64,000 nucleotides of DNA from an uncultured Paracoccaceae bacterium (GTDB lineage: Bacteria; Pseudomonadota; Alphaproteobacteria; Rhodobacterales; Rhodobacteraceae), in the NCBI GenBank assembly GCA_947501355.1, contig CANMVA010000001.1:938001-1002000 (forward strand), given 5' to 3'. The position numbers and the translations under genes were made by a program. The notes below the pieces were generated by a model that was not told the origin of the DNA, did not search any database, and saw nothing but the letters and a program-made list of their open reading frames with translations. Positions 6,429 to 64,000 of the stretch are shown here, one piece after another (position 1 is the stretch's first letter; each line of letters begins with the position of its first letter).

Positions 6429-7631
6429 ATGAACCGTCCTGAATTCTATCGTTATCACAATGGCCAGAAGGCCGTTTTGCCGTTTGAAGACGCCGAATAC
6501 GAGGCGCGCTTGAAGGGGTTGCGCGCCATCATGGCGGAGGCGGGGGTGCAGGCGGCCGTGTTCACCTCAATGCACAATATCGCCTATTATTCTGGGTTCC
6601 TCTATTGCGCGTTTGGGCGGCCTTACGGGTTGGTCGTGACCGACACGGAATGTGTAACGATTTCGGCGGGGATTGATGCGGGGCAGCCGTGGCGGCGGAG
6701 CTATCGCGACAACATCACCTATACGGACTGGCAGCGAAACAATTACTGGCGCGCGGTGCGGTCTGTGACGGGAACGGGGGTGCATTGCGGCTATGAAGGC
6801 GATCACATGACGGTTTCGCAGCGCGACCTTTTTTGCGCGATGCTGGAGCCGTCTGAGGTGACGGATCTGGCGCCCGCGACGATGCGGCAGCGGATGCATA
6901 AATCGCCGGCCGAGATTGATCTGATCCGCGCGGGCGCGGCGGTGGCGGATGTGGGTGGCTATGCGATCCGGGATGCGATCAAGGAAGGCGTGCGCGAGAT
7001 TGATGTGGCGATGGCCGGGCGGGACGCGATGGAGGTGGAGATCGCCAAGCGGTTTCCCGACGCGGAGTATCGCGACACGTGGGTCTGGTTTCAGTCGGGG
7101 ATCAACACGGACGGGGCGCATAATCCTGTGACGGGTCGCAAGCTGGAACGCGGCGATATCCTGAGCCTGAACACGTTTCCCATGATCTCGGGCTATTATA
7201 CGGCGTTGGAACGGACGCTGTTTGTGGGCGAGGTCGATGAGGCTTCCCGCGCGATCTGGGAGGCGAATGTGGGCGCGCATGAATTGGGGATGTCGTTGCT
7301 GAAACCGGGTGCATCCTGTGCCGAGGTAACCGCAGGCGTGAACGCGTTTTTTGAAGAGCGGGACCTATTGCAATACCGGACCTTTGGCTACGGGCACTCC
7401 TTTGGGGTTCTGTCCCATTACTATGGCCGCGAGGCGGGGTTGGAGCTGCGCGAGGATATCGACACGGTGCTGGAGCCGGGGATGGTAATCTCGATGGAGC
7501 CGATGCTGACGATCGCGGACGGGGAGCCGGGGGCTGGCGGATACCGTGAGCATGATATTCTGGTGATCACCGAGGACGGGAACGAGAATATCACGGGCTA
7601 TCCGTATGGGCCTGACTTCAACGTGGTCTGA
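6429..7631 (+). CDS. creatinase (creatine amidinohydrolase)
   Basis: A 400-aa pita-bread-fold hydrolase that splits creatine to sarcosine and urea. The N-terminal FTSMHNIAYYSGFLYCAFGRPY (~45-66), GQPWRRSYRDNITYTDWQR and the INTDGAHNPVTGR segment closely resemble Pseudomonas creatinase. H231 matches the known catalytic histidine. The M24 metal ligands are absent: the usual Asp pair in GD..iDxG...D is replaced (GDILSLNTFP...YTALERT), as in true creatinases, which argues against a metallopeptidase or the related DMSP lyase DddP. The sarcosine product fits the downstream dehydrogenase gene. A CGGAGGT ribosome-binding site precedes the start. Confidence 0.88.
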   Translation: MNRPEFYRYHNGQKAVLPFEDAEYEARLKGLRAIMAEAGVQAAVFTSMHNIAYYSGFLYCAFGRPYGLVVTDTECVTISAGIDAGQPWRRSYRDNITYTDWQRNNYWRAVRSVTGTGVHCGYEGDHMTVSQRDLFCAMLEPSEVTDLAPATMRQRMHKSPAEIDLIRAGAAVADVGGYAIRDAIKEGVREIDVAMAGRDAMEVEIAKRFPDAEYRDTWVWFQSGINTDGAHNPVTGRKLERGDILSLNTFPMISGYYTALERTLFVGEVDEASRAIWEANVGAHELGMSLLKPGASCAEVTAGVNAFFEERDLLQYRTFGYGHSFGVLSHYYGREAGLELREDIDTVLEPGMVISMEPMLTIADGEPGAGGYREHDILVITEDGNENITGYPYGPDFNVV

Positions 7632-9528: not shown

Positions 9529-10680
9529 ATGAATATTCAGACAGATCTGGGTGCGGTGATGACATCGGTGGCGCAGGCCAAGGGCTTGCCCAATGCGCAT
9601 TACGTGTCGCCCGAAGTGTTCGAAGAAGAAAAGCAGGCGGTGTTGTTCGATCACTGGGCGGGCGTTGGCTTTGGCAAGGATGTGCCCGAAAAGGGCGACG
9701 CGATGCCGGTGAATTTTTTGGGCATGCCGCTGCTGATCGTGCGGGATCGGGATGGCGAGGTAGGTGTGTTTCAGAACACCTGCCGCCATCGCGGGATGAT
9801 TTTGGTGGATGCACCGAAGAAGATCGAAGGGGCGATCCGCTGCCCCTATCATTCGTGGTGCTACAGCTTGAAAGGGGCGTTGAAATCGACGCCCCATGTG
9901 GGCGGACCGGGGCGCAATACGCATCCGGACATCAAGCGCGATGAACTGGGGCTGATCCGCGTGCCGTCCTATGTCTGGCATGACGTGATTTATGTGAATG
10001 TGAACGGCAATGCGGCGCCATTCGAGGAGGTGAATGCCGACTTGATGGCGCGCTGGTCGGAGTTCCAGACGCCAATGGTGCATGGCGGCGAAAGCTCTTC
10101 GTTCAAGCTGGAGGTGGCGACGAACTGGAAGCTCGCGGTCGAGAATTATTGCGAGAGCTATCATCTGCCGTGGGTGCATCCGGGGCTGAACAGTTATTCG
10201 CGGCTGGAGGATCACTATAATATCGAAGTGCCCGGCGCGTATTCGGGGCAAGGCACGTTGGTCTATCGCCAGCTAAAGGGCGCGCGCGGTGAGACGTTCC
10301 CCGATTTTGGCGCACATTCCAGCCAGTGGGACGAAGGCGCGGAATATGTGGCGGTCTATCCAAATGTGCTGCTGGGCATTCACCGTGACCATTACTTTGC
10401 GATCATTCTGGAGCCGAAAGCGCTGGACCAGACGGTTGAGCATATCGAGATTTACTACTCTGACGCCGGCGCGCGCGACCCCGATCTGGCGGAGTTGCGC
10501 GACGCGAATGCCGCGCAGTGGAAGGGCGTTTTCGTCGAGGATGTGTTCGTTGTGGAGGGCATGCAGAAGGGCCGGAAGGGCGCTTTGTTCGATGGCGGAA
10601 AATTCTCGCCTGAGATGGACGGGCCGACTCATAATTTCCATCATTGGGTCGCCTCGGCTGTGGATGCGGCGCGGCGGTGA
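9529..10680 (+). CDS. Rieske non-heme iron oxygenase alpha subunit, quaternary-amine type
   Basis: A 383-aa oxygenase. The Rieske cluster ligands are C85/H87 (CRHRG) and C105/H108 (CPYHSW). The mononuclear iron site is NYCESYHLPWVH, with histidines 212 and 217 and Glu209 where most ring hydroxylases have a bridging Asp. Glu at this place is known for carnitine and betaine-type monooxygenases, so N-demethylation or hydroxylation of a quaternary amine is more likely than aromatic dihydroxylation. The start follows a TAGGAGG site. Its neighbour is a dimethylglycine dehydrogenase-like gene. No reductase gene is adjacent, so electrons must come from elsewhere. Confidence 0.85.
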   Translation: MNIQTDLGAVMTSVAQAKGLPNAHYVSPEVFEEEKQAVLFDHWAGVGFGKDVPEKGDAMPVNFLGMPLLIVRDRDGEVGVFQNTCRHRGMILVDAPKKIEGAIRCPYHSWCYSLKGALKSTPHVGGPGRNTHPDIKRDELGLIRVPSYVWHDVIYVNVNGNAAPFEEVNADLMARWSEFQTPMVHGGESSSFKLEVATNWKLAVENYCESYHLPWVHPGLNSYSRLEDHYNIEVPGAYSGQGTLVYRQLKGARGETFPDFGAHSSQWDEGAEYVAVYPNVLLGIHRDHYFAIILEPKALDQTVEHIEIYYSDAGARDPDLAELRDANAAQWKGVFVEDVFVVEGMQKGRKGALFDGGKFSPEMDGPTHNFHHWVASAVDAARR

Positions 10681-10907
10681 GTGCGCTGGATGACGCGTTG
10701 CTGCGCGCGCATGCGGACGCGGACAACGCGGCGTTGATCCGGCTTTATACGCAAGCGGCGGATCAGGCGGGCGATGTGGATGCGGCGTGTTTCTATCTCA
10801 CTCATGCGTATGTTTTCGCTTTGGAAAGCGGCGCGCCGGAAGCGGCTGCGTTGAATGCGCGGCTGGCGGATCACGGGCGCGAGGTGCGGGATGCCGTTTG
10901 CGACTGA
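10677..10907 (+). CDS. small unknown helical protein between oxygenase and dehydrogenase
   Basis: A 76-aa acidic, alanine-rich protein starting at GTG, which overlaps the Rieske stop (GTGA). The sequence (LDDALLRAHADADNAAL..LYTQAADQAGDVDAACFYLTHAYVFALESG) looks like a pair of TPR/Sel1-like helices. The tight overlap and matching GC content support it being real and coexpressed with the oxygenase. It may be an accessory or scaffold for the oxygenase or dehydrogenase, but nothing in the sequence proves this. Confidence 0.65.
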   Translation: MSALDDALLRAHADADNAALIRLYTQAADQAGDVDAACFYLTHAYVFALESGAPEAAALNARLADHGREVRDAVCD

Positions 10908-10990
10908 GCGGGGCTTGATTTGGCGCGAATGGGCAATTTTGCTGGTGAGGGCGGCGTAAGTTGGGACCGCGCAGCAATGGAGTTTGAGCG

Positions 10991-13402
10991 ATGAAGACCC
11001 ACGCACAGGCGGTGGTGATTGGCGGCGGGGTGATCGGATGCTCGATCCTCTATCATCTGACGAAACTGGGATGGACGGATGTTGTGCTGCTGGAGCGGGA
11101 TGAGTTGACGTCGGGCTCCACTTGGCACGCGGCGGCGAACATCCACGGGCTGCATGACAACAACAACATCACGCGCATCCAGAATTATACGATGGATTTG
11201 TATAATGCGCTGGAGGCCGAGACGGGGCAAAGCTGTGGTGTGTTCCAGCCAGGATCGCTTTATCTGGCGCAGACCGAAGCGCGGGAACATCAGCTGCGCT
11301 TGCAGGCGGCGAAGGCCAAGTATTACGGGCTGAACTTCTATGAGGTAGACCGCGATGAGGCCGAAAGGCTGCATCCGCTGGTTAATTATGATGGCATCCG
11401 CTGCATCATGTATGAGCCCTCGGGCGGGAATGTGGACCCGTCGGGGGTGACGAATGCCTATGCCTCGGGCGCGCGGCAGAACGGGGCTGAGATTCACCGG
11501 TTCACGCCTGTGACGGGGACGGAGCAGCAGGCAGATGGCACGTGGATTGTGCGCACGCCAAAGGGGGACGTTCGGACTGAAGTTGTGGTGAATGCCGCTG
11601 GCCTTTGGGGCCGTGAGGTGGCGGCGATGGCTGGCATTGAGCTGCCGCTTTTGCCGACGGAGCATCAGTATTTTGTGACTGAGACGATTGCAGAGATTGC
11701 GGCGCTGGATCGCCGTTTGCCCTCGGTCGCGGATCGGGATGGGGAGTATTACCTGCGCCAAGAAGGCAAGGGCCTGCTGGTTGGCGCCTATGAAAAGGAC
11801 GTGCGGTTCTGGGCCGAAGATGGCACGCCGCAGGGCTTTGGGCATGAGCTGTTTGCCGATGATCTGGAGCGGATCGAGGACAATATGATGCGCGCGATTG
11901 ACCGGGTGCCTGCCGTGGGCGAGGCGGGGATCAAACGGGTGATCAACGGGCCGATGATCTGGTCGCCCGATAGCAATGCCCTGTTTGGGCCGGTGCCGGA
12001 ATTGAAGGGCTATTTCTGTTGTAACGGAATCATTCCGGGGTTTTCGCAGTCCGGGGGGCTGGGGTCTTTGACGGCGGAATGGATCGTCACGGGCGAGCCT
12101 CATCTGGATATGTTCCCGTGGGATATGGCACGGTTCGGGGCTTGGGCGGATCGGAAGTTTACCAAGGCGAAGGTGGGCGATCAGTACGCCAATCGATTCT
12201 CGATCCATTTCCCGAATGAGGAGCGCTCTGCCGGGCGTCCGGCGCGGGTGCGACCCGTCTATGAGATGCAAAAGGATATGGGTGCGGTCTTCGGGTTGAA
12301 CTACGGGTGGGAACATCCGCTGTGGTTTGCGGACCAGCCGGGGGTGGCTGATACCAACGGGTTCACACGGCAGAACTGGTGGGAGCCTGTGGGGGCGGAA
12401 TGCCGGATGCTGCGGGAGAAAGCGGGGATCATCGATATCTCCAACTTCGCGAAATATTCGGTGAAGGGTGCGGGGGCGAGCGACTGGCTGAACAGCCTTT
12501 TTGCCAACAACATGCCGAAGGCGGTGGGGCGGTCCTGCCTGACGCCCTTGATCGGGAAACGGGGGGGGATTGCGGGGGATTTCACCGTGACCAAGCTTGA
12601 TGAGGAGGACTTCTTGATTATCGGCTCCGGCATGGCGGAGCGGTATCACCTGCGGTTCTTCAACGATGTGCCGCGCCCTGAAGGCGTTGTTTTTGAGAGC
12701 AAAACCGAAGACATGTGCGGCTTCAACGTGGCGGGGCCGGAAAGCCGCGCGATGTTGCAGCGGCTGACGAATGCCTCGCTGGCGACAGAAGATTTCCCGT
12801 TCATGCGGTCGCAGAAGATCACGCTGGCAGGCGTTGATCTGGTGGCTCTCAGGGTGTCGTTCACCGGTGATCTGGGCTGGGAATTGCATTGCAAGACCGA
12901 GGATCAGGCGCGGCTCTATGAGGCGCTGCTGGAGGCGGGGCGCGAGTTGGGCGCGGGGCCAGTTGGCAGCCGTGCGCTGATGAGCCTGCGGATCGAGAAA
13001 GGCTATGGGTCGTGGAGCCGCGAGTATTCGCCGGAATATTGGCCGCAGGAAGTCGGGCTGGCTCCGCTGATCAAGATGGGCAAGGAGTTCCTGAACAAGG
13101 GGGCCTACGAGGCGCTGGCAGAGAACACGCCGCGGGAGCATTTGTCGATCATCGAAGTGCTGGATGTCGAGGATGCAGATGCGTCTGGCGGGGAGCCGAT
13201 TTTCCTGCCCGATGGCACGCCCGTGGGGCGGGTCAGCAGCGGGGCTTATGGGTATTCGGTGGGCAAATCGCTGGCGCTGGGCTTTCTGAAAGGTGTGGAG
13301 GCGGGCGCGGATGTCGATGTGATGATTTTAGGCCGCCCGCATCGCGGTGTGGTGCTGGCGGAGCCTCCGTTCGATCCGGAGGGTGTGAGGCTGCGGGCGT
13401 GA
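10991..13402 (+). CDS. FAD-dependent dimethylglycine/sarcosine dehydrogenase-like protein with GcvT domain
   Basis: An 803-aa two-part enzyme. The N-terminal DAO-type FAD domain begins VVIGGGVIGCSILYHL (~8-23) and has SGSTWHAA with H46, the residue that carries covalent flavin in dimethylglycine dehydrogenase. The C-terminal half (~440-790) is a GcvT/aminomethyltransferase-like tetrahydrofolate domain (for example DISNFAKYSVKGAGASDWLN and GYGSWSREYSPEYWPQE). The likely reaction is oxidative demethylation of dimethylglycine or sarcosine with transfer of the methyl carbon to folate. It is downstream of a Rieske oxygenase and near creatinase, both of which can feed it. Exact substrate unresolved. 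Confidence 0.88.
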   Translation: MKTHAQAVVIGGGVIGCSILYHLTKLGWTDVVLLERDELTSGSTWHAAANIHGLHDNNNITRIQNYTMDLYNALEAETGQSCGVFQPGSLYLAQTEAREHQLRLQAAKAKYYGLNFYEVDRDEAERLHPLVNYDGIRCIMYEPSGGNVDPSGVTNAYASGARQNGAEIHRFTPVTGTEQQADGTWIVRTPKGDVRTEVVVNAAGLWGREVAAMAGIELPLLPTEHQYFVTETIAEIAALDRRLPSVADRDGEYYLRQEGKGLLVGAYEKDVRFWAEDGTPQGFGHELFADDLERIEDNMMRAIDRVPAVGEAGIKRVINGPMIWSPDSNALFGPVPELKGYFCCNGIIPGFSQSGGLGSLTAEWIVTGEPHLDMFPWDMARFGAWADRKFTKAKVGDQYANRFSIHFPNEERSAGRPARVRPVYEMQKDMGAVFGLNYGWEHPLWFADQPGVADTNGFTRQNWWEPVGAECRMLREKAGIIDISNFAKYSVKGAGASDWLNSLFANNMPKAVGRSCLTPLIGKRGGIAGDFTVTKLDEEDFLIIGSGMAERYHLRFFNDVPRPEGVVFESKTEDMCGFNVAGPESRAMLQRLTNASLATEDFPFMRSQKITLAGVDLVALRVSFTGDLGWELHCKTEDQARLYEALLEAGRELGAGPVGSRALMSLRIEKGYGSWSREYSPEYWPQEVGLAPLIKMGKEFLNKGAYEALAENTPREHLSIIEVLDVEDADASGGEPIFLPDGTPVGRVSSGAYGYSVGKSLALGFLKGVEAGADVDVMILGRPHRGVVLAEPPFDPEGVRLRA

Positions 13403-54767: not shown

Positions 54768-55739
54768 ATGATGTTTAACAAACTGAAACTGACAGCCGTG
54801 GGTGTGGTGTCTGCTGCGATGATGGCACCTGCCGCCTACGCAGAAGAGTTCATCACCATCGGCACCGGTGGCGTCACAGGCGTTTACTACCCCACTGGCG
54901 GCGCGATCTGCCGTCTGGTGAACAAAGGTCGCCGCGATCATGGCGTGCGCTGCTCGGTCGAATCCACGGGTGGGTCTGTCTACAACATCAACACCATCCG
55001 CGAGGGTGAGCTTGAGTTCGGCGTGGCCCAGTCTGACTGGCAGTATCACGCGTTCAACGGCTCGTCGCGCTTTGAAGAAGCGGGTCCCTTTGAAGGCCTG
55101 CGCGCCGTGTTCTCGGTTCACCCGGAGCCCTTTACGGTTGTGGCCCGTGCTGACGCCGGCATCACAACGGTTGATGATCTGGCTGGCAAGCGCGTCAATA
55201 TCGGCAATCCCGGCTCCGGTCAGCGCGGCACGATGGAAGTGCTGATGGAAGCCAAAGGCTGGACGATGGACGATTTCGCCCTCGCAACCGAGCTGAAAGC
55301 GGCTGAGCAGTCGGCAGCGCTCTGCGACAACCAGATCGACGCGATGGTCTACACCGTGGGTCACCCCTCTGGCTCCATTCAGGAAGCGACGACCGCATGT
55401 GATTCCGTGCTGGTTGAAGTGTCCGGTGACGCTGTCATGGGTCTGGTCGAGAACAACTCGTTCTACCGCACCGCCACCATCCCCGGCGGCATGTATCGCG
55501 GCAATGACAACGACACGATGACCTTCGGTGTGGGCGCGACCTTCGTGACCTCGGCGGATGTCTCTGAAGAGGTTGTCTACACGCTCGTCAGCGCGGTCTT
55601 CGAGAATTTCGAGGACTTCACCGGTCTGCACCCTGCGTTTGCCAACCTCAAGCCCGAGGAAATGGCGACGGCTGGTTTGTCTGCCCCGCTGCACCCCGGT
55701 GCGGAGAAGTATTACAAAGAGCAAGGCTGGATCGAGTAA
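54768..55739 (+). CDS. TAXI family TRAP transporter solute-binding protein
   Basis: A 323-aa periplasmic protein with signal peptide ending PAAYAEE. The start of the mature chain [25 protein letters not shown] is the TAXI family hallmark, followed by [13 protein letters not shown]-like [22 protein letters not shown] proteins bind glutamate, other amino or organic acids, often unknown. It works with the fused permease downstream. Divergent from the aminotransferase/BKACE genes across a 237-bp region in which I saw no convincing operator. Confidence 0.93.
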
Positions 55740-55761
55740 TCTCGACCCGTTGAAAACAGCT

Positions 55762-55781
55762 GGGGGCGGTGCGCTGCCCCC
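55762..55781 (+). other. intercistronic hairpin after TAXI gene
   Basis: GGGGGC and GCCCCC arms 8 bases apart, 23 bp after the stop codon and without a T-run. As for the ABC operon, it likely stabilises the binding-protein mRNA and lowers permease expression. Confidence 0.6.
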
Positions 55782-55846
55782 GGTCTGCACCGGCTCAACT
55801 TGGCCGGGCTTCCAGAATAAGCACGCCGAAAAGGCAGCAGGGGGAC

Positions 55847-58459
55847 ATGATGTCGAAAACAGAAAAACGCGCTCTGAGTGAAGAAGAACTCCAAGAGCTT
55901 GTTGCCGCCAGTGACAGTGGCGCGCGCAGTCCCACCGGCTCCGTTGGTCTGTTCATCGCACTTGTCGCGCTGACATGGTCGATCTTTCAGGTCCTTTTAG
56001 CCTCACCCGTCGCCCCTTGGGTGCTGCCAGGCGATCTGATCAACAACTCGCGTCAGATTCACTTGGCGTTTGCGGTGTTCCTGTCCGCCATGGCCTATCC
56101 GCTCTTCAAGTCGAGCCCGCGCGATTACATCCCGTGGTATGATTGGGCGCTGGGGATCGCAGGCGCGTTCCTCGCGCTTTACGGGTATTTCTTCTATGAC
56201 AAGATCGTGGGCAATGGCGGTTTGGCAGATGCAACCGACGCCTATTTCGCCTTGGCCGGTCTGATCCTGCTTTTCATCGCGTCCTACCGCGTTCTGGGTC
56301 CCGTGATGGTGATCCTCGCGCTGATCTTCCTGTTTTACGTGTTCTTTGGCTCGTCCGAGGCCGTGCCCGACCAGATCCGCTGGGCGGGTGCATCCTTGCG
56401 CAAGGCGATGAGCCATATGTGGATCACGTCCGAGGGGGTCTTCGGGATCGCTTTGGGCGTTTCGACCAAGTTCGTGTTCCTGTTCGTTCTGTTCGGCGCG
56501 CTTTTGGATAAGGCAGGGGCGGGCAATTACTTCATCAAGATGGCGTTTGGCGCGTTGGGCCACCTGCGCGGTGGGCCTGCGAAAGCCGCGGTTGTGGGAT
56601 CGGCTGCCACCGGCCTGATCTCGGGCTCGTCTATCGCGAACGTCGTCACTACCGGCACGTTCACCATTCCGCTGATGAAGCGTGTGGGGTTCAGCGCTGA
56701 AAAGGCCGGCTCGGTCGAGGTGGCGTCATCCGTCAACGGTCAGATCATGCCGCCTGTGATGGGCGCGGCTGCCTTCCTGATGGTTGAGTATGTGGGCATC
56801 TCTTACGTCGAGGTCATCACCCACGCTTTCCTGCCTGCGGTGATTTCCTACATCGCGCTGGTCTACATCGTTCACCTTGAAGCGGTGAAAAACAACATGC
56901 CGACCATTGGCAACAAGGTCGTTAGCATGGGCCGCACCATTGGCGGGATGTTCGCGTTTTTCGCAGGCTTTGCCGCACTTTGCTACATCACGCAGTTCCC
57001 GGTGCGCTTCATCACCGGGCTGTTCCCGGAAGGCTCGGGTTTGATCCTAGCGGTGCTGCTGAGCGCGATCTATGTGGCGCTGATCTATCTGGCCTCGCAA
57101 ACGCCTGATCTTGAGGCCGATGACCCCAATGCAGAGGTCGTGGAGCTTCCCGATCTGGCAAAGATTTACAAATCCGGTCTCTACTTCCTGCTACCGATCA
57201 TCGTGCTGGTCTACTTCCTGATGATCGAGCGCAAGTCGCCCGGCCTCTCGGCCTTCTGGGCGACCTTCCTGCTGTTCGGCATCCTGCTGACCCAGAAGAT
57301 GCTGAAGGCGTTCTTCCGCGGTGAAGATAACGCGATCAGCCGTCTCAAGGACGGTGTGATCGACCTGATCGACGGTATGATCGACGGCGCGCGTAACATG
57401 ATCGGGATCGGTCTGGCGACTGCGACGGCGGGCATCATCGTTGGCACTGTGTCGTTGACCGGGATCGGTCAGGTGATGGCGGATTTCGTTGAATTCCTGT
57501 CAGGCGGGAACCTGATCCTGATGCTGATCTTCGTGGCGATCCTATCGCTGATCCTTGGGATGGGCTTGCCGACCACAGCCAACTACATCGTTGTGTCCTC
57601 CCTGATGGTGGCCGTGGTAGTCGAACTGGGCGCGCAGTCGGGCCTGATCGTGCCGCTGATCGCAGTTCACCTGTTCGTCTTCTATTTCGGCATCATGGCC
57701 GATGTGACGCCCCCTGTGGGTCTGGCGAGTTTCGCCGCCGCTGCCGTCTCAGGCGGCGATGCGATCCGCACAGGTTTCACGGCGTTCTTCTACAGCTTGC
57801 GGACGGTGGCGCTGCCCTTCGTGTTCATCTTCAACACGGACCTGCTGCTGATCGATGTGACGCTGACCCAAGGCATTATCGTCTTCATTGTCTCGACCAT
57901 TGGTATTCTTGTGTTTACCGCCGCAACCATGGGCTGGTTCCTGACCCGCAACCGCATCTATGAGACGGTGCTCCTGCTGCTTGTCGCTTTCGCGCTGTTC
58001 CGTCCGGGGGTCTTCATGAACCAGATCCAGCCGCCGTTCGAACAGATCGCGCCTGCGGCGTTCTCGGAGGCGCTGGGTGCTGCGGAGCCGGGTGACGAGT
58101 TGCGGGTGATTATCTCAGGGCCTGACTTCGACACGCTGGAGGTCAAAGAGGTCACGGTGCCGCTGACCGTGCCGGAAGGTGCGGATGCGCAAGCGCGGCT
58201 GGATGCGCTGGGCTTCATCATCGTGCCGGAAGGCGATGCGCAGCGGCTGGATGAGCCGGGCTTCGGCTCGGACCTGGGCGACGCGCTGTCCTCGTTCGAT
58301 TTCTACGGGGATGACCCGGTGCAAATCGCCAGTGTCCAAGCCACCGCAGATCAGATGCCCAAGGAACTGATCTTCATCCCGGCGCTGCTGCTGCTTGGCC
58401 TTATCGCGCTGATGCAATCGCGCCGCGCGACCCCTGTTCGTGAAGGAGAACTGGCATGA
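55847..58459 (+). CDS. TRAP transporter fused DctQM-type permease with C-terminal extra domain
   Basis: An 870-aa membrane protein typical of TAXI systems (4TM-12TM type). It begins MMSKTEKRALSEEELQ after GGGGGAC. Core segments include AAVVGSAATGLISGSSIANVVTTGTFTIPLMKRVGFSAEKAGSVEVASSVNGQIMPPVMGAAAF and ILGMGLPTTANYIVVSSLMV...FYFGIMADVTPPVGLASFAAAA. Residues ~735-860 form a soluble acidic domain (DUF3394-like) ending with a last helix ELIFIPALLLLGLIALMQ. Overlaps uspA by 4 bp. Confidence 0.92.
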   Translation: MMSKTEKRALSEEELQELVAASDSGARSPTGSVGLFIALVALTWSIFQVLLASPVAPWVLPGDLINNSRQIHLAFAVFLSAMAYPLFKSSPRDYIPWYDWALGIAGAFLALYGYFFYDKIVGNGGLADATDAYFALAGLILLFIASYRVLGPVMVILALIFLFYVFFGSSEAVPDQIRWAGASLRKAMSHMWITSEGVFGIALGVSTKFVFLFVLFGALLDKAGAGNYFIKMAFGALGHLRGGPAKAAVVGSAATGLISGSSIANVVTTGTFTIPLMKRVGFSAEKAGSVEVASSVNGQIMPPVMGAAAFLMVEYVGISYVEVITHAFLPAVISYIALVYIVHLEAVKNNMPTIGNKVVSMGRTIGGMFAFFAGFAALCYITQFPVRFITGLFPEGSGLILAVLLSAIYVALIYLASQTPDLEADDPNAEVVELPDLAKIYKSGLYFLLPIIVLVYFLMIERKSPGLSAFWATFLLFGILLTQKMLKAFFRGEDNAISRLKDGVIDLIDGMIDGARNMIGIGLATATAGIIVGTVSLTGIGQVMADFVEFLSGGNLILMLIFVAILSLILGMGLPTTANYIVVSSLMVAVVVELGAQSGLIVPLIAVHLFVFYFGIMADVTPPVGLASFAAAAVSGGDAIRTGFTAFFYSLRTVALPFVFIFNTDLLLIDVTLTQGIIVFIVSTIGILVFTAATMGWFLTRNRIYETVLLLLVAFALFRPGVFMNQIQPPFEQIAPAAFSEALGAAEPGDELRVIISGPDFDTLEVKEVTVPLTVPEGADAQARLDALGFIIVPEGDAQRLDEPGFGSDLGDALSSFDFYGDDPVQIASVQATADQMPKELIFIPALLLLGLIALMQSRRATPVREGELA

Positions 58460-58887
58460 CCAAGACGGTTCTATGCGCTGTTGACATCAATCGCCCCGAT
58501 GAGGAGGCTCATGTCCTCAAACGCGCCAAGCAGTTGGCGGATCTGGATGGCGCACAGTTAGATGTGATCACCGTTGTGCCTGATTTCGGGGCCAGCCTTG
58601 TGGGCGCCTATTTCGAGGAGCATCACGTCAAGACCGCCAAGGACAGTGCGGTCGAGTTGCTGAGCAAATTCGTGGCCGACACGTTGGGTGCAGAGGCCGA
58701 TGAGAAGGCGCGCCACATCGTTGCGGTGGGCAGTGTCTATGAGGAGGTCCTCAAGACAGCCGCCCTGTCAGGGGCCGACCTGATCGTACTCGGCGCGCAT
58801 CGTCCGGACCTCAAGGACTACTTGCTAGGCCCCAACGCGTCCCGCGTGGTGCGCCATTCGGAGTGTTCGGTTTACGTGGTTAGGTAA
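58456..58887 (+). CDS. universal stress protein (UspA) of the TRAP operon
   Basis: A 143-aa UspA-fold protein (VLCAVDINRPDEEAHVLKRA; C-terminal VLGAHRPDLKDYLLGPNASRVVRHSECSVYVVR). The ATP-binding glycines are partly conserved. It is translationally coupled to the TRAP permease; such UspA proteins (TeaD type) are known to regulate TRAP transport activity in an ATP-dependent way. Confidence 0.92.
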   Translation: MTKTVLCAVDINRPDEEAHVLKRAKQLADLDGAQLDVITVVPDFGASLVGAYFEEHHVKTAKDSAVELLSKFVADTLGAEADEKARHIVAVGSVYEEVLKTAALSGADLIVLGAHRPDLKDYLLGPNASRVVRHSECSVYVVR

Positions 58888-58933: not shown

Positions 58934-59314
58934 TCAGCTGTCTTCAAGGACTTTTCTGGCAACGCGGAAGCACTCCAAGGCCTGCGGCACACCGCAATAG
59001 ATGCCAACCACATGGATGATGGCGCGGATCTCGTCCGGGGTGACACCGTTGTTGATCGCGCCGCGACAGTGGATTTCCCATTCGTGCATCTTCCCCAAAG
59101 CGCCGATCATGGACAGGTTCATCATGGAGCGCGTCTTGGGATCAATGACGTCGTCGCCCCAGCCAAATCCCCAGCACCACGCTGTCATCGCCTCTTGAAA
59201 GGGACGCGTGAACTCATCGGCGGCGGCAAGGTTCTTTTCAACGTAGGCCTCGCCCAGTGTGGCCTTGCGCTGCTCTAACCCTTTCAGAAACAGATCTTCG
59301 TCAAATGCAGTCAT
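58934..59314 (-). CDS. carboxymuconolactone decarboxylase-like protein
   Basis: A 126-aa all-helical protein of the CMD/AhpD superfamily (RSMMNLSMIGALGKMHEWEIHCRGAINNGVTPDEIRAIIHVVGIYCGVPQALECFRVARKVL). The AhpD CxxC pair is absent; the EWEIHCRGAINNG region matches decarboxylase-type members. It is the last gene of the operon with an RpiR regulator and follows the aldehyde dehydrogenase by 3 bp. No protocatechuate genes are nearby, so the classical PcaC function is unlikely to be meant. Confidence 0.88.
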   Translation of the reverse strand: MTAFDEDLFLKGLEQRKATLGEAYVEKNLAAADEFTRPFQEAMTAWCWGFGWGDDVIDPKTRSMMNLSMIGALGKMHEWEIHCRGAINNGVTPDEIRAIIHVVGIYCGVPQALECFRVARKVLEDS

Positions 59315-59317
59315 TTG

Positions 59318-60763
59318 TCAGCCTTTCAATTTGATCGCGACATTCTTGGTCTGAACGTAGTTCCAAAGGGCTTCGCGGCCCTTTTCGCGCCCATAGCCGG
59401 ATTTACCATACCCGCCGAAAGGCGTTTCGACCCCGCCTGCATACCATTCGTTCACGAAGACCTGTCCGGCGCGCAGCTGACGGGCGGCTGTCGTTGCGCG
59501 GTCAAGGTCGCGGGTGAAGACGCCGCCGACCAAACCGTAGGGCGTTCCGTTGGCGATCTTGAGGGCTTCCGCATCATTTGAGAACTTAAGCACCGACAGA
59601 ACCGGGCCGAAAACCTCTTCATTGGCAATCGTCATGTCAGGGGTGACATCTGTCAGGATCGTTGGTTCCAGAAAGGCACCGGGGATGTTCATCTTGCGGC
59701 CCCCCGTGGCGACCTGAGCGCCCTGCGCTTGCGCCGCCGATATCATATCTGCCGCACGGTCCCGTTGCGCCTCCGACACCATCGCGCCCATGGTTGCGCC
59801 GAATTGGGGCTGCTCGATCCCGGGCTTTACGCTGAGCGATTGGGCGACGCCGACCATCCGTTCGACCAGTTCATCATGAACACTGTCATGGACGATCACA
59901 CGGCTCATGGCCGAGCAGACTTGCCCCGCGTTGAAATAGATGCCCCAACGGATGTCGTTTTCAAACGCCGCGAGATCGGCATCATCATGGACAATGGCGG
60001 CGGATTTTCCGCCCAGTTCCAACACGCAGGGCACGACGTTTTGCGCAGCAGCAGTGGCGATGGCGATGCCCGTCGGGACAGAGCCGGTAAAGACGATCTG
60101 GTTCACTTGAGGGTGGGCTGCGAGGGCTGCACCCGCGTCACGCCCCAGACCGCACAGGATGTTGACGGCCCCTTTGGGCAGGCCCACAGCCTCGGCAGCA
60201 TGGGCGAACCACGCGTTGCTGAGCGGGGTCAGTTCCGGCGTCTTGATCACGCAGGCATTGCCCGTCGCTAGGGCTGCCGACAAGGACCGGGCCGTCATTT
60301 CGACGGGGTAGTTCCATGGAATAATCTGGGCAGAGACGCCAAAGGGCTCGTATGTGGTGAAGTCGAAATAGCCTTTCCCAAGCGGGATTGAGCGGCCTTC
60401 GACCGTTTCGGCCTGATTGCCGTAGTATTCAAAGTAGCGCGCAGCACCTTCAATCTCGATCACGGCTTCCCAGAGCGGTTTACCCTGCTCCATGGTCAAA
60501 ACCCGCGCGATCTCATCTTTATTCTCCAACAGATAGCGCCCCATGGCCTGCACCATCCGTCCGCGTTCGACCGGGCGCAGATCGGCGAGCGCGCCGGACT
60601 GATGCACGCGCTGTGCGGCCATGACGGCGCGGTCCACATCGGCGACATCCGCCAGCGCCTGTTCGGCCAGCTTTTCGCCCGTGCCGGGGTTCGCGATGTC
60701 GATCCGGCCCGCACCGCCGTCGACCCAGGCTCCTTCAATGTAGTTCTGCCAATAGGTCTTCAT
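59318..60763 (-). CDS. aldehyde dehydrogenase, betaine-aldehyde-like
   Basis: A 481-aa NAD(P)-dependent dehydrogenase: PWNYPVEMTARSLSAALATGNACVIKTPELTPLS, FTGSVPTGIAIATAAA, ELGGKSAAIV with the general base and the nucleophile in FNAGQVCSAMSRV. The type resembles betaine and aminobutyraldehyde dehydrogenases. In this operon a Glu-bridged Rieske oxygenase could produce the aldehyde (as malic semialdehyde arises from carnitine), but the real aldehyde is unknown. ATGA overlap with the sulfotransferase-fold gene upstream. Confidence 0.9.
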   Translation of the reverse strand: MKTYWQNYIEGAWVDGGAGRIDIANPGTGEKLAEQALADVADVDRAVMAAQRVHQSGALADLRPVERGRMVQAMGRYLLENKDEIARVLTMEQGKPLWEAVIEIEGAARYFEYYGNQAETVEGRSIPLGKGYFDFTTYEPFGVSAQIIPWNYPVEMTARSLSAALATGNACVIKTPELTPLSNAWFAHAAEAVGLPKGAVNILCGLGRDAGAALAAHPQVNQIVFTGSVPTGIAIATAAAQNVVPCVLELGGKSAAIVHDDADLAAFENDIRWGIYFNAGQVCSAMSRVIVHDSVHDELVERMVGVAQSLSVKPGIEQPQFGATMGAMVSEAQRDRAADMISAAQAQGAQVATGGRKMNIPGAFLEPTILTDVTPDMTIANEEVFGPVLSVLKFSNDAEALKIANGTPYGLVGGVFTRDLDRATTAARQLRAGQVFVNEWYAGGVETPFGGYGKSGYGREKGREALWNYVQTKNVAIKLKG

Positions 60764-61503
60764 GAAGGCATGATCCGATGCTGATAGAGGTGATCATAAT
60801 GGGGTTTCATCCGGCGATGCACGCGCCGAACGCGTTCAGGTGCGTCAGCGACCTCAATATAGCGGCGGGCTTGCGGTTTGAGCCCCGTTGATTGCGCAAG
60901 ATTGGCGTGGAATGATCCCCCATCCCACCAACTATGGGCAGAGGGATCGCCGCCCGGCTCCCACTGCATAGCCTCGGACAAGAAGGGAATGCCAACAGCC
61001 TCACAAAAGGCGCTGACCATAGCATCGGGGTTTTCCAGCAGATCATCGCTGTCGATCACGGGCGGGGGCGCTCCGTTCAGGGCGCTCAAAAGATCGAACA
61101 AGGCCCGCTGTTCGGGAAACCCCACTTCAAGCTCATCGAAATGGGGCCATTTGTTGTAGATCGACGAGATCGTTTTGGCCGGGTCGCGGATGAGGAAAGC
61201 ATGGGTGAAATGGGACAGAAATTCCGGCGTCCACATGTGGTTGATGTAATGGGGAAAGTCCTTGAGAAAGACCGGACCCTTCTGGGCGCGGGCCTGAATA
61301 TCCTCCCAGACGCTGTCGAGCGTCAGGCCCTTGGTCGTCTTGTCGCCTGCCGTGAACCGCGGCCAGAGCGGGTCTTCGCCTTGATACCAGGCTTCTCCGA
61401 AAGGTTCGTGCAGGCACTCCAGATCGCCCCGTTGGCGCATCATCCACTCGAAAGCGGTCGAGGTGGAGCGGGGGACGGCCCAGAGCGCGATGATCTTATG
61501 CAT
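60760..61503 (-). CDS. sulfotransferase-fold P-loop protein of unknown role
   Basis: A 247-aa protein with an N-terminal phosphosulfate-loop-like motif IALWAVPRSTSTAFEWMM (5-22) and FLIRDPAKTISSIYNKWPHFDELEVG (~103-128), where RDP and the following Ser fit the PAPS-binding pattern of sulfotransferases. Small proteins of this sort are often annotated only as sulfotransferase-like. It overlaps both neighbours (8 bp upstream, 4 bp downstream), so it is fully part of the operon. What would be sulfated, or whether a kinase-like reaction occurs, is unclear. Confidence 0.75.
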   Translation of the reverse strand: MHKIIALWAVPRSTSTAFEWMMRQRGDLECLHEPFGEAWYQGEDPLWPRFTAGDKTTKGLTLDSVWEDIQARAQKGPVFLKDFPHYINHMWTPEFLSHFTHAFLIRDPAKTISSIYNKWPHFDELEVGFPEQRALFDLLSALNGAPPPVIDSDDLLENPDAMVSAFCEAVGIPFLSEAMQWEPGGDPSAHSWWDGGSFHANLAQSTGLKPQARRYIEVADAPERVRRVHRRMKPHYDHLYQHRIMPS

Positions 61504-62329
61504 GAAGGCTTTCCAGTAAGCTGCTTTGCGGTGTGGTCGGGGCGATTTCGAGGTCCTTCATGATCCGCCAGTATAGTGCCGTGTCATGGCCGATGACCGG
61601 CTTGCCCAACTGTGCTTCCAGCGCGCGCGCCAGATGGAGGGGGCGTTGCGGCAAACCATCTGGTCCGCTGCGAAAATTGCACATGCCGTTGATCAGATAG
61701 GCATCTGCATCTGGCGCCTGTTCCGCGACATAGGCAAAACTTTTGTAAAAGAGGTCACCGTCGAAAATCCAGCGTTTCGCGTTCACGCTTTCCTGGTCGG
61801 GGAACCATCCCTGATCGACGAAGTTGCCCGCCCAGAGGACGTCAAACCCGGCCTCACGCAGAAAGCCCGCCGTGCCTTGCCACCAAGCGGGCCAATGATA
61901 GGCCGCGTTCAGTGCGACTTTTTCAACATTCATGGCTCGCAAAGCCTCGACCATGGCGTAGCCAGCCATGTGAAACTGCGTTTCATATCTGTCGGACAGG
62001 TCCGCACAATGCTGGCGAATGCCGTCGACGCCCAACCCGCTGGCATGCACCCAGTTTGAGCCAACCTGCCCGCAGACATCCACGCCGTTGCGCGCCATGC
62101 ACTGCACGAAGTCTTCGAGCATCCCGAAGTTCTGTTTGCGCTGCTCCAGACCGTGGACATAGTCGGGCACATGTAGCATCCAGCCATGCACGCCCACATT
62201 GTCGGGGCACATGCGCAGGAAATCCGACGGGGCCGCGTCAAAATCAAATGGCGGGCAGGTAAAACCCACTTGATGGGGAAACAGCTTTTGGTCGGCCGTC
62301 CATTCAGAAGGCATCGCCAGATCAGCCAT
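61496..62329 (-). CDS. Asp/Glu racemase superfamily protein (maleate isomerase-like)
   Basis: A 277-aa two-lobed protein with cysteines in equivalent places of both lobes: C86 in GVDVCGQVGSNWVHA and C217 in YLINGMCNFRSGPDG. N-terminal VGFTCPPFDFDAAPSDFLRMCPDNVGVHGW and C-terminal LEAQLGKPVIGHDTALYWRIM fit the maleate isomerase/arylmalonate decarboxylase branch. Two cysteines favour racemisation or isomerisation over decarboxylation. It overlaps the Rieske gene by 8 bp. Substrate unknown. Confidence 0.75.
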   Translation of the reverse strand: MADLAMPSEWTADQKLFPHQVGFTCPPFDFDAAPSDFLRMCPDNVGVHGWMLHVPDYVHGLEQRKQNFGMLEDFVQCMARNGVDVCGQVGSNWVHASGLGVDGIRQHCADLSDRYETQFHMAGYAMVEALRAMNVEKVALNAAYHWPAWWQGTAGFLREAGFDVLWAGNFVDQGWFPDQESVNAKRWIFDGDLFYKSFAYVAEQAPDADAYLINGMCNFRSGPDGLPQRPLHLARALEAQLGKPVIGHDTALYWRIMKDLEIAPTTPQSSLLESLHA

Positions 62330-63401
62330 CTATCGCCTCGCGCATCCAGCGTTGCAGATGCATGACAGGATGTTCCGAGTTTACGCCGCCTTTCGGGTCC
62401 ACCACCAATGGACCGGGTCGGTATCCGCGCGAGCCAAGACCGCGTTGGACGCTTTCAACCAGATGGATGTCTTCCTCTACCGTGGTTTCACGGTCCTGCA
62501 CGGCCAATTGGCGTATTTTCGGATCGTCCACGCCGTCCAGCGAATACCAGCCGCGCCAGACCACCACGCGGCCCGCATCAACGGCGCGCCAGTGATAGGT
62601 GTTGAGCACATTGCCCGGATAGACCTGAAAGGAGAACATCGGCCAAAGGAACCAACTGGAATATTCATACTGGTGGGCAAAGCCGGAATGAACATCATAG
62701 GTCATGTCCTCAAGGCTTTGGCATTCCGTTGTGTGGCGCAGGCATTTGCCCTGCGGCTGGATGTCATAAGTCTCGGGCTTCACCACTCCATTGGCAAAGG
62801 TCGGATGGTTGAGCGCGCAATGATAGCATTCGGAGTAGTTCTCGACCGAGACTTTCCAATTGCAGTTTTCGGGGATTTCGACCCATTCCAGCGGTTTGAG
62901 GTCAGCCCAATTGGGCAGCCATTCGCTAAGCTCGGTGCGGGCGTTGGGAAACCAATCGTCCATTGGCGCGGCATCCGGGTCGAGGTTCACGAAAACGAAG
63001 CCGATAAACTCCTCAGCGCGGACTTCGGTGAGGCAGATGTCGGATTTCTCAAACCCCTCGACCGCTTTGATGTTCGGCCCTGCGCGCAGTTCTCCGGTCA
63101 GCTCGTAGGTCCACGCGTGATACGGACATACGACGACGCGGGTCGTGCCGCTCCCGTTGACCAACTGGTGCGCGCGGTGCTGGCAGACATTGTAGAACAC
63201 ACGGATTTTCCCGTCGCGCCCCCGGATGGCAAAGAGGCTCTCGCCAGCGATCTCAAAGGTGGTGTAGTCGCCGGTCTTGGCCAGATCAGACGCATGGCAG
63301 CCGAATTGCCAGGTGCTGGCCAGCAGGCCCCGGTTTTCGACCTGAAAGACGTGCGGGTCGGTGTAATAGCGCGCGGCCAATGATCGGATCGGGCCTGTCA
63401 T
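62322..63401 (-). CDS. Rieske non-heme iron oxygenase alpha subunit, carnitine-monooxygenase-like
   Basis: A 359-aa oxygenase with Rieske ligands C73/H75 (CQHRAHQ, lacking the usual Gly after HR) and C92/H95 (CPYHAWTYEL). The iron site is ENYSECYHCALNH with histidines 194 and 199 and Glu191 instead of bridging Asp, as in carnitine monooxygenase CntA and betaine-type enzymes. So the substrate is probably a quaternary or methylated amine rather than an arene. No reductase gene is seen; it may lie beyond the right edge. ATGA overlap with the RpiR gene. Confidence 0.87.
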   Translation of the reverse strand: MTGPIRSLAARYYTDPHVFQVENRGLLASTWQFGCHASDLAKTGDYTTFEIAGESLFAIRGRDGKIRVFYNVCQHRAHQLVNGSGTTRVVVCPYHAWTYELTGELRAGPNIKAVEGFEKSDICLTEVRAEEFIGFVFVNLDPDAAPMDDWFPNARTELSEWLPNWADLKPLEWVEIPENCNWKVSVENYSECYHCALNHPTFANGVVKPETYDIQPQGKCLRHTTECQSLEDMTYDVHSGFAHQYEYSSWFLWPMFSFQVYPGNVLNTYHWRAVDAGRVVVWRGWYSLDGVDDPKIRQLAVQDRETTVEEDIHLVESVQRGLGSRGYRPGPLVVDPKGGVNSEHPVMHLQRWMREAIDG

Positions 63402-64000
63402 TTGCCCTCCGTATGATAGAGGCCCAGTTCGTGACGGCGGGCATGGAATGTCGCCACACGTTCTGGAATTTCATCGCTGGCGACGGCAATCACGAAGGAC
63501 AGCAACGTTTCCAGCAGGGCGATGATGCTGACGGATGAGGGGAAGAATTGCGGGGTATCCACCGAGACCACGAAGCCATGATCAGCCAGACAGATGATCG
63601 GGCTGGCGCGGCTGTCCGACAGGGCAACGATGGTCATCCCTTGTTCATGGGCGATGCGCACGGCCTCGACCACCTCAGAGCGGTAGGGCTTGCAGGTGAT
63701 CGCGATCAGAAGGTCGCGGCCATCGGCCCAGGCCAGATCATCCACTGGTGTGGACCCAGGCCGCGGGATCGCGTGAAATTCGGTCATGCCTGTTGAGGCA
63801 AGATAGGTGAAGTTGCGCGCGACGGAGTTGTTTACACCGACGCCCAGGGTAAAGACGTTGCGGGCGTTCCAGATCGCCTGTGCTGCGGATTTCAGATCGT
63901 CTGTCGAAATCTCTGCGAAGGTTTCTTCTACGTTTGAGATCACGTCCCGAACCATGTCTGCATAAAGCTCGCCCAGATCGCCGGATTTGGAGATGTTCTG
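63398..64000 (-). CDS. MurR/RpiR family regulator, C-terminal part
   Basis: The visible 200 residues are the SIS domain of an RpiR-type regulator: AIWNARNVFTLGVGVNNSVARNFTYLAS, DDLAWADGRDLLIAITCKPYRSEVVEAVRIAHEQGMTIVALSDSRASPI. The frame stays open to the window edge, so the N-terminal HTH lies outside. Members sense phosphosugars or other small acids. It is the most upstream visible gene of the operon and likely controls it. Confidence 0.88.
   Translation of the reverse strand, partial: QNISKSGDLGELYADMVRDVISNVEETFAEISTDDLKSAAQAIWNARNVFTLGVGVNNSVARNFTYLASTGMTEFHAIPRPGSTPVDDLAWADGRDLLIAITCKPYRSEVVEAVRIAHEQGMTIVALSDSRASPIICLADHGFVVSVDTPQFFPSSVSIIALLETLLSFVIAVASDEIPERVATFHARRHELGLYHTEGK

Follow-up and report, generated by a model that had tools for sequence, protein, structure and literature searches.

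The 64,000-nucleotide window analyzed here (bases 938001-1002000 of contig C1 in the 3.48 Mb genome of an uncultured Paracoccaceae bacterium, rated 99.96% complete) ends within a tight operon whose six genes all lie on the minus strand, in the order RpiR-RO-AMD-ST-ALDH-CMD. They encode an RpiR-family regulator, a Rieske oxygenase (RO), a protein with the arylmalonate decarboxylase/maleate isomerase fold (AMD), a sulfotransferase (ST) of the type using 3′-phosphoadenosine-5′-phosphosulfate (PAPS), an aldehyde dehydrogenase (ALDH), and a PcaC-like decarboxylase-family protein (CMD). Overlaps of 4 bases (RpiR/RO and ST/ALDH) or 8 bases (RO/AMD and AMD/ST) join these genes, and a gap of 3 bases separates ALDH from CMD. 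A preliminary description of this DNA had listed the same six genes as a compact operon, and all are present where it placed them. Its family calls also agree with Pfam, with matches to Rieske and Ring_hydroxyl_A (RO), Sulfotransfer_5 (ST), Aldedh (ALDH), CMD, and SIS (RpiR). The exception is AMD, which had been called racemase-like and which scores 22.5 bits with the Amdase model, under the cut-off of 25.9.

The window contains only part of this gene system. In L002, a stretch running beyond position 64000 (window position equals L002 position plus 57999), the likely RpiR start lies 285 bases past the window end, as picked from the conserved region between the arms. A second arm of six plus-strand genes (L002:6342-14455) begins 341 bases beyond the window and is located wholly past 64000. 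It encodes a protein with flavin adenine dinucleotide (FAD) oxidase and GcvT domains (FADox), a dehydrogenase of the medium-chain dehydrogenase/reductase (MDR) family (ADH), three enolase-superfamily proteins (MLE1-3), and a class III aminotransferase (AT), with 4-base overlaps throughout except for a 3-base gap between MLE3 and AT. Given a probable RpiR start near L002:6286, about 55 bases separate the arms. Thus, the operon in the window makes up half of a 12-gene divergent cluster (Table 1).

We consider it reasonably probable that this cluster, likely under RpiR control, allows a small osmolyte of the N-methylated (betaine) type to be used as a source of carbon and nitrogen, for which a hydroxylated proline-type betaine is the likeliest class. 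In marine algae, betaines are major osmolytes that contain nitrogen, with Roseobacter-type bacteria as main consumers.

Table 1. Genes of the divergent cluster. Positions are those of the window unless preceded by L002.
Gene	Assignment	Position	Strand	Basis
CMD	PcaC-like decarboxylase-family protein	58934..59314	-	PF02627 69.7 bits; TIGR02425 118.1 bits, cut-off 155.7 missed
ALDH	Aldehyde dehydrogenase	59318..60763	-	PF00171 516.5 bits; best curated model TIGR01804 (betaine-aldehyde dehydrogenase) 418.5 bits, cut-off 668.6 missed
ST	PAPS-type sulfotransferase	60760..61503	-	PF19798 66.2 bits; model pLDDT 92.2
AMD	Arylmalonate decarboxylase/maleate isomerase fold	61496..62329	-	Model pLDDT 92.3; Gly at both catalytic-Cys positions
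RO	Rieske oxygenase alpha subunit, carnitine/betaine type	62322..63401	-	PF00355 and PF00848; bridging Glu191
RpiR	RpiR-family regulator	63398..64000, cut by window end	-	HTH_6 and SIS in full protein L002:5399-6391
FADox	FAD and GcvT protein	L002:6342-8789	+	Dimethylglycine-dehydrogenase-like
ADH	MDR-family dehydrogenase	L002:8786-9868	+	
MLE1	Enolase-superfamily protein	L002:9865-10971	+	
MLE2	Enolase-superfamily protein	L002:10968-12074	+	
MLE3	Enolase-superfamily protein	L002:12071-13174	+	
AT	Class III aminotransferase	L002:13178-14455	+	

Conservation of the cluster and of its inter-arm region

Relatives were collected as the best 80 of 245 AMD relatives in named genomes (named loci). 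By title, most of these loci come from Roseobacter-type bacteria (Shimia, Ruegeria, Roseovarius, Planktomarina, and others), which are marine genera, and a few carry SAR116, Rhizobiales, Granulosicoccaceae, and similar labels. Forty-five of them have at least 9.5 kb on each side (full loci) and were scored at an identity of at least 50%, or 30% for DddQ and GFA. RO is found in 41 of these full loci; RpiR, FADox, and ADH in 39 each; CMD and MLE2 in 35 each; MLE3 in 32; and MLE1 in 30. Genes for a DddQ-like cupin (26), AT (22), a GFA-like protein (21), and ALDH (19) are less constant. Shimia thalassica CECT 7735 (L042) is an example of a strain in which the full set of 12 is present. The GFA-like protein, one representative of which matches PF04828, is present in 34 of all 80 named loci. 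In L062 and seven other named loci, mainly Roseovarius-labelled records, a gene for a beta-keto acid cleavage enzyme lies downstream of the cluster.

Loci chosen through AMD cannot tell how frequently AMD goes along with the other genes. To this end, one set of 295 family genomes was searched for both AMD (E ≤1e-20) and RO (E ≤1e-90), which gave RO in 51 genomes and AMD in 19, or in 18 once genome G024 is set aside (see below). Twenty RO neighborhoods lacking the AMD-ST pair were fetched, 16 from the 33 RO-positive genomes without AMD and four from AMD-positive genomes. FADox is divergent from RpiR-RO in all 20, and the gene directly after RO is GFA, ALDH, or CMD in 16, a DsbA-like gene followed by CMD in one, and none of these in three. 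The cluster recurs in related genomes and its genes are conserved together, contrary to the first outcome that the preliminary description had named as refuting it, with the limit that AMD and ST form a separable pair. Betaine demethylation clusters are known in kind. In the literature searched, for the most part papers outside subscription, we found no description of the 12-gene make-up or of the AMD-ST pair; parts of the DddQ neighborhood may well have been described already. The conserved divergent cluster with a regulator between its arms offers a defined gene set to test.

The region between RpiR and FADox is conserved as well. An alignment of 81 distinct sequences, from 88 collected, reveals a common block, TGATACATTTGT..CATTCATGATTGACGATGGTACAT.TGT.c.atTAGCCTGTCGAG, which partly consists of the RpiR start itself. 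RpiR probably controls the cluster and may do so by binding the inter-arm block. A model of the block was put to 13 loci in which AMD-ST is detached from RO, representing 10 distinct places given that three genomes are present twice. Only L026 matched below E 0.01; the other 12 gave no match below that value. Three main clusters that were among those behind the model matched as expected, and the divergent region of L039 itself reached only E 0.23. In genome G200, a distant GFA-AMD-ST unit keeps the block (nhmmer E 4e-4) together with what seems to be left of an RpiR start, and a DddQ-like gene runs in the opposite direction. This unit resembles a copy of the cluster center that has split off, and therefore indicates common descent, and perhaps common control, of the unit and the cluster.

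Predicted chemistry of the core enzymes

The nearest solved relative of RO is the carnitine monooxygenase CntA (6y8j; 214.9 bits over residues 12-352), with which it shares an ECYHC segment. Next is 3vca, which we take to be the stachydrine demethylase Stc2 and which gives 117.7 bits overall, with a best stretch restricted to residues 7-220. Among 30 aligned RO sequences, including that of the window, C73, H75, C92, H95, H194, H199, and D311 are invariant; these presumably form the Rieske C-x-H...C-x2-H motif and the His/His/Asp ligands of the mononuclear iron. Residue E191 is likewise invariant and aligns with a Glu of both carnitine monooxygenase and 3vca, which agrees with the earlier observation of a bridging Glu as in carnitine/betaine monooxygenases. 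In Rieske oxygenases of this type, Glu stands in for Asp as the bridging residue.

The partners of RO differ from those in the CntA operon, and the dedicated reductase that the preliminary description had thought worth seeking was not detected. Specifically, Pfam models (E ≤0.001) revealed no GbcB/CntB-type reductase in the genome, where FAD, NAD, and 2Fe-2S domains occur together only in one NqrF-like protein. This is the only FAD_binding_6 protein; there is one other NAD_binding_1 protein, and there are nine Fer2 matches including NqrF. Therefore, RO probably draws on shared ferredoxin and ferredoxin reductase carriers.

The match of RO to its closest relative, carnitine monooxygenase, spans nearly the full protein. 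One possibility is therefore that RO splits an acyclic quaternary amine at a C-N bond and that ALDH, which follows in the operon, oxidizes the aldehyde product. Carnitine monooxygenase acting with malic semialdehyde dehydrogenase is the model for such a route. A beta-keto acid cleavage enzyme encoded nearby in eight of the 45 full loci would also suit it. However, ALDH (at 50% identity or more) is missing from 26 of these loci whereas FADox is present in 39, and a carnitine-like route has no place for three enolase-superfamily enzymes and a dimethylglycine-dehydrogenase-like enzyme. We consequently regard this alternative as unlikely.

FADox matches dimethylglycine dehydrogenase (PDB 4pab), which has the same FAD oxidase and GcvT domains, over almost its whole length (491.5 bits). 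The earlier proposal of a catabolic operon for a quaternary amine is supported by the affinity of RO to Rieske enzymes that act on amines and by FADox as the first gene of the divergent arm. Because the cluster contains two N-demethylating enzymes, it would fit a substrate with two removable N-methyl groups. Proline betaine is reported to undergo two successive demethylations in Paracoccus denitrificans and Rhodobacter sphaeroides (PMC11337228).

The three enolase-superfamily proteins point toward chemistry beside a carboxylate. MLE1, MLE2, and MLE3 score 383, 321, and 323 bits with the model for cis-3-hydroxyproline dehydratase, compared to 107, 146, and 90 bits with that for muconate cycloisomerase. 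MLE1 gives 681.9 bits with 2rdx and MLE2 gives 726.8 bits with 3eez; these two structures, both from structural genomics, are of proteins of Roseovarius nubinhibens and Ruegeria pomeroyi. Two catalytic lysine motifs, [FHL]-x-x-K-x-G and K-[LI]-[SNT]-x-x-G-G, are kept in all three proteins as well as in 4mgg and 4e8g. MLE1-3 belong to the enolase subgroup of the dehydratase, here as three tandem paralogs. A Trp close to the active site was considered as a marker of betaine-binding MLE proteins, but it is present in both 4mgg and 4e8g and does not discriminate. Enzymes of the dehydratase type are reported both to epimerize and to dehydrate cis-3-hydroxy-L-proline, with hydroxyproline betaine 2-epimerase and proline betaine racemase as related members of the same group (PMC5144071).

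These scores also bear on aromatic catabolism, in which RO would hydroxylate a ring, with MLE and CMD proteins in roles like those of the beta-ketoadipate pathway. MLE1-3 are indeed matched by the muconate cycloisomerase model and CMD by the PcaC model, in each case below the cut-off. Yet the far higher scores of MLE1-3 with the hydroxyproline dehydratase model, the Glu bridge of RO and its position nearest to amine-acting enzymes, and the lack of a ring-cleavage dioxygenase among the 12 genes all make this alternative highly improbable.

A route for a betaine with a hydroxylated proline skeleton can be envisaged as follows. RO would strip one N-methyl group as formaldehyde, receiving electrons through the shared ferredoxin and ferredoxin reductase, and FADox would move the second N-methyl group onto tetrahydrofolate. 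The enolase-superfamily trio may then epimerize and/or dehydrate the product beside its carboxylate, in the manner of cis-3-hydroxyproline dehydratase and hydroxyproline betaine epimerase. Finally, the MDR reductase, the aminotransferase, ALDH, and CMD could work up the aldehyde and keto acids formed. A DddQ-type cupin might serve as another eliminating enzyme in many relatives. That the substrate belongs to the N-methyl betaines appears fairly safe. The assignment to the hydroxyproline type is a guess, supported by the family of the MLE proteins, that we rate as somewhat less likely than not. What the data establish is the gene content, the conservation of the genes and of the inter-arm region, the family and fold assignments, and the lack of the AMD cysteines; the reactions, the regulation, and the substrate are all inferred.

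Several observations weigh against this proposal or loosen its fit. The known route for 3-hydroxyproline needs no aminotransferase, CMD, or ALDH. Curated models were missed by CMD and ALDH (Table 1), by all three MLE proteins (500 bits would be needed for the dehydratase), and by RO, which scores 150.9 bits with the glycine betaine monooxygenase GbcA model (NF058607; cut-off 670). The genome has seven full-length dimethylglycine-dehydrogenase-like genes, that is, six besides FADox, in addition to one shorter match, and so membership of FADox in this family tells little by itself. Selecting the named loci through AMD also makes the AMD-bearing form look more fixed in their counts than it is. 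Named or curated families assign no function to AMD or ST. A transporter, another gene that had been sought beyond the window, would have hinted at the substrate, but when the 40 most frequent additional gene families of 87 loci were inspected, no family recognized by eye as a transporter occurred in more than five loci. Homarine, which had been named among possible substrates, is neither supported nor excluded; our literature search found no homarine operon of this make-up.

Link to DddQ-like cupins

A DddQ-like cupin gene accompanies the cluster in many relatives. It was found in 31 of the 87 loci scanned and, by a more sensitive count, in 33 of the 55 named loci that have FADox and whose left flank is complete. 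One representative matches solved lyases of dimethylsulfoniopropionate (DMSP) at E values from 4e-31 to 2e-22, and the metal-binding motif Y-x2-H-x-H...E...Y is present in all 37 copies from the scan of 87 loci. A DMSP_lyase-family gene lies within 10 kb of RO in at least 15 of the 51 RO-positive family genomes. Such proteins are commoner in RO-positive genomes (32 of 51) than in RO-negative genomes (91 of 244; P 0.001, kinship uncorrected), and occur in 14 of 18 AMD-positive genomes versus 18 of the 33 other RO-positive genomes (P 0.13). A trade-off between the presence of DddQ and MLE copy number was considered and is not seen, as three MLE copies are present in 23 of 33 loci with DddQ and in 12 of 22 without it.

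These findings raise the question of whether the cluster is used for DMSP or a related sulfonium compound. In Ruegeria pomeroyi and Roseovarius nubinhibens, dddQ mutants are reported to make 97% and 20% less dimethyl sulfide (DMS), respectively, and dddQ to be induced by DMSP (PMC5395565). The same study gives DddQ a Km of 22 mM for DMSP, however, which speaks against DMSP as the intended substrate. In both strains dddQ is linked to an MDR-family gene, as in the named loci, and the R. nubinhibens MDR gene did not restore acrylate resistance; these details come solely from the passages of the study that deal with the MDR gene (PMC3338564). Moreover, RO and FADox suit N-methyl rather than S-methyl chemistry, and the window's own genome has no match to the DMSP_lyase family. 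We therefore judge a sulfonium pathway to be improbable.

Since the window's genome lacks the DMSP_lyase family, the proposed betaine pathway would not need DddQ. In relatives, DddQ, a marker of DMS production, is encoded within a cluster seemingly made for N-methylated compounds, and the substrate of these cupins can now be tested directly.

AMD and ST as an accessory pair, and neighboring genes

AMD had been described as a two-cysteine racemase or isomerase, a view that its structure model does not bear out. The best fold match is 4ix1, an uncharacterized Rhodococcus protein (Z 28.9), followed by maleate isomerases and arylmalonate decarboxylase (Z 23.5-26.1 over 226-233 residues; 4fq7 26.1, 3ixl 25.5). 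Lower scores are obtained with an uncharacterized archaeal protein (Z 19.6) and with hydantoin, allantoin, aspartate, and glutamate racemases (Z 11-17). In the alignment, Gly74 of arylmalonate decarboxylase, a position where racemases carry Cys, corresponds to G90 of AMD, and the catalytic Cys188 corresponds to G215, a register confirmed by the solved G74C/C188S mutant (entry 3ixl). Both glycines are invariant in 56 sequences and likewise in a wider set that includes 4ix1. Given Gly at both catalytic-Cys positions, AMD is neither a two-cysteine racemase nor a Cys188 decarboxylase. The cysteines that the preliminary description presumably had in mind lie at other positions: C217, although invariant in those 56 sequences, gives way to Ser and to Pro in two remoter members, and Ala frequently takes the place of C86.

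The identification of ST as a PAPS-loop protein, in contrast, is borne out. The loop PRSTSTAF (P11-F18), R106, and S114 are invariant in 57 aligned sequences and presumably represent the 5′-phosphosulfate loop and the 3′-phosphate motif. The genome encodes an adenosine 5′-phosphosulfate kinase domain and therefore probably makes PAPS. An enzyme with these motifs would add sulfate, and its presence does not support the sulfated or sulfonated substrate that had been suggested. Overall, the preliminary description is supported as regards quaternary-amine catabolism and the conservation of its genes, but not as regards the two-cysteine racemase, which is wrong, or a sulfated or sulfonated substrate; it missed the second arm, which it could not see, the DddQ link, and the accessory nature of AMD-ST.

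The predicted fold of ST is most similar to the sulfotransferase domains of olefin synthase (4gox, Z 13.3) and CurM (4gbm, Z 13.2), at 13-17% identity and only about 1 Z unit above tyrosylprotein sulfotransferases. A sequence profile found no significant match among solved proteins, the best being an unrelated oxygenase (E 0.036) and 4gbm (E 0.042). Sulfation by the olefin synthase and CurM domains turns a hydroxyl into a leaving group. Fold similarity to them suggests, without proof, a sulfation-activated elimination.

In all 80 named loci, AMD is followed downstream by ST on the same strand, the two matches being −5 to +168 bases apart. The AMD-ST pair is accessory to the wider pathway, because the cluster persists without it (33 of the 51 RO-positive family genomes have no AMD) and because the pair lies outside the RO operon in five of the 18 AMD-positive genomes. 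In two of these five (G073 and G200) it is more than 1 Mb away on the same contig, and in three (G082, G139, and G176) it is on another contig.

It might even be that AMD-ST is an unrelated passenger that, for example, sulfates a surface or signalling molecule. Its frequent absence from RO-positive genomes would fit, as would the lack of the inter-arm block in nearly all detached loci and the distant AMD relative of G024, which is 31% identical, contains one internal stop, and belongs to a genome with no RO match. Yet all 18 other AMD-positive genomes, one of which (G160) is represented by a fragment at a contig end, have RO, where about three would be expected (hypergeometric P ~1e-15, kinship uncorrected), and this includes the five whose pair is off the RO operon. 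The block and the DddQ-like gene retained by the distant pair of G200 also count against a passenger, which we hold to be quite unlikely.

An AMD profile run over 398 genomes of the phylum gave three matches, namely the window's genome and two of its family, and so provides no distant context. In favor of N-methyl chemistry, two loci, L110 and L116, have AMD-ST with no RO nearby, along with genes for an MttB-type methyltransferase and FAD-demethylase-like proteins. In L038 (13311-16639) and L120 (15113-18247), a gene for a protein of about 560 residues adjoins one for an Ldh_2-family dehydrogenase near AMD-ST; the L038 copy of the former has no Pfam match.

AMD and ST thus constitute an intact-looking enzyme couple without a known reaction. 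As a side entry to the betaine pathway, the pair probably widens the substrate range, with a hydroxyl being sulfated and the product handled. We speculate further that ST sulfates a hydroxyl of the betaine skeleton as a leaving group, that the cysteine-free AMD drives sulfate loss with or without CO2 and so opens substrates that the enolase trio cannot dehydrate, and that the real substrate of DddQ-type cupins is a betaine-derived acid with a beta leaving group, DMSP cleavage being a side activity. Taken as one joint claim, this is a long shot.

Two other gene groups of the window deserve mention. Genes for a TAXI-type TRAP transporter and a universal-stress-like protein (54768-58887) converge on the operon. 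They were rejected as part of the cluster, occurring at 55% identity in none of the 80 named loci; a similar trio adjoins detached AMD-ST in a single family genome (L038). Elsewhere in the window, at 9547-13402, a second Rieske oxygenase (28% identical to RO) is followed by a second dimethylglycine-dehydrogenase-like gene and is preceded by what we take to be a LysR-like gene and a gene for an M24-type, creatinase-like protein (6429-7631). This group possibly represents another pathway for an N-methyl compound.

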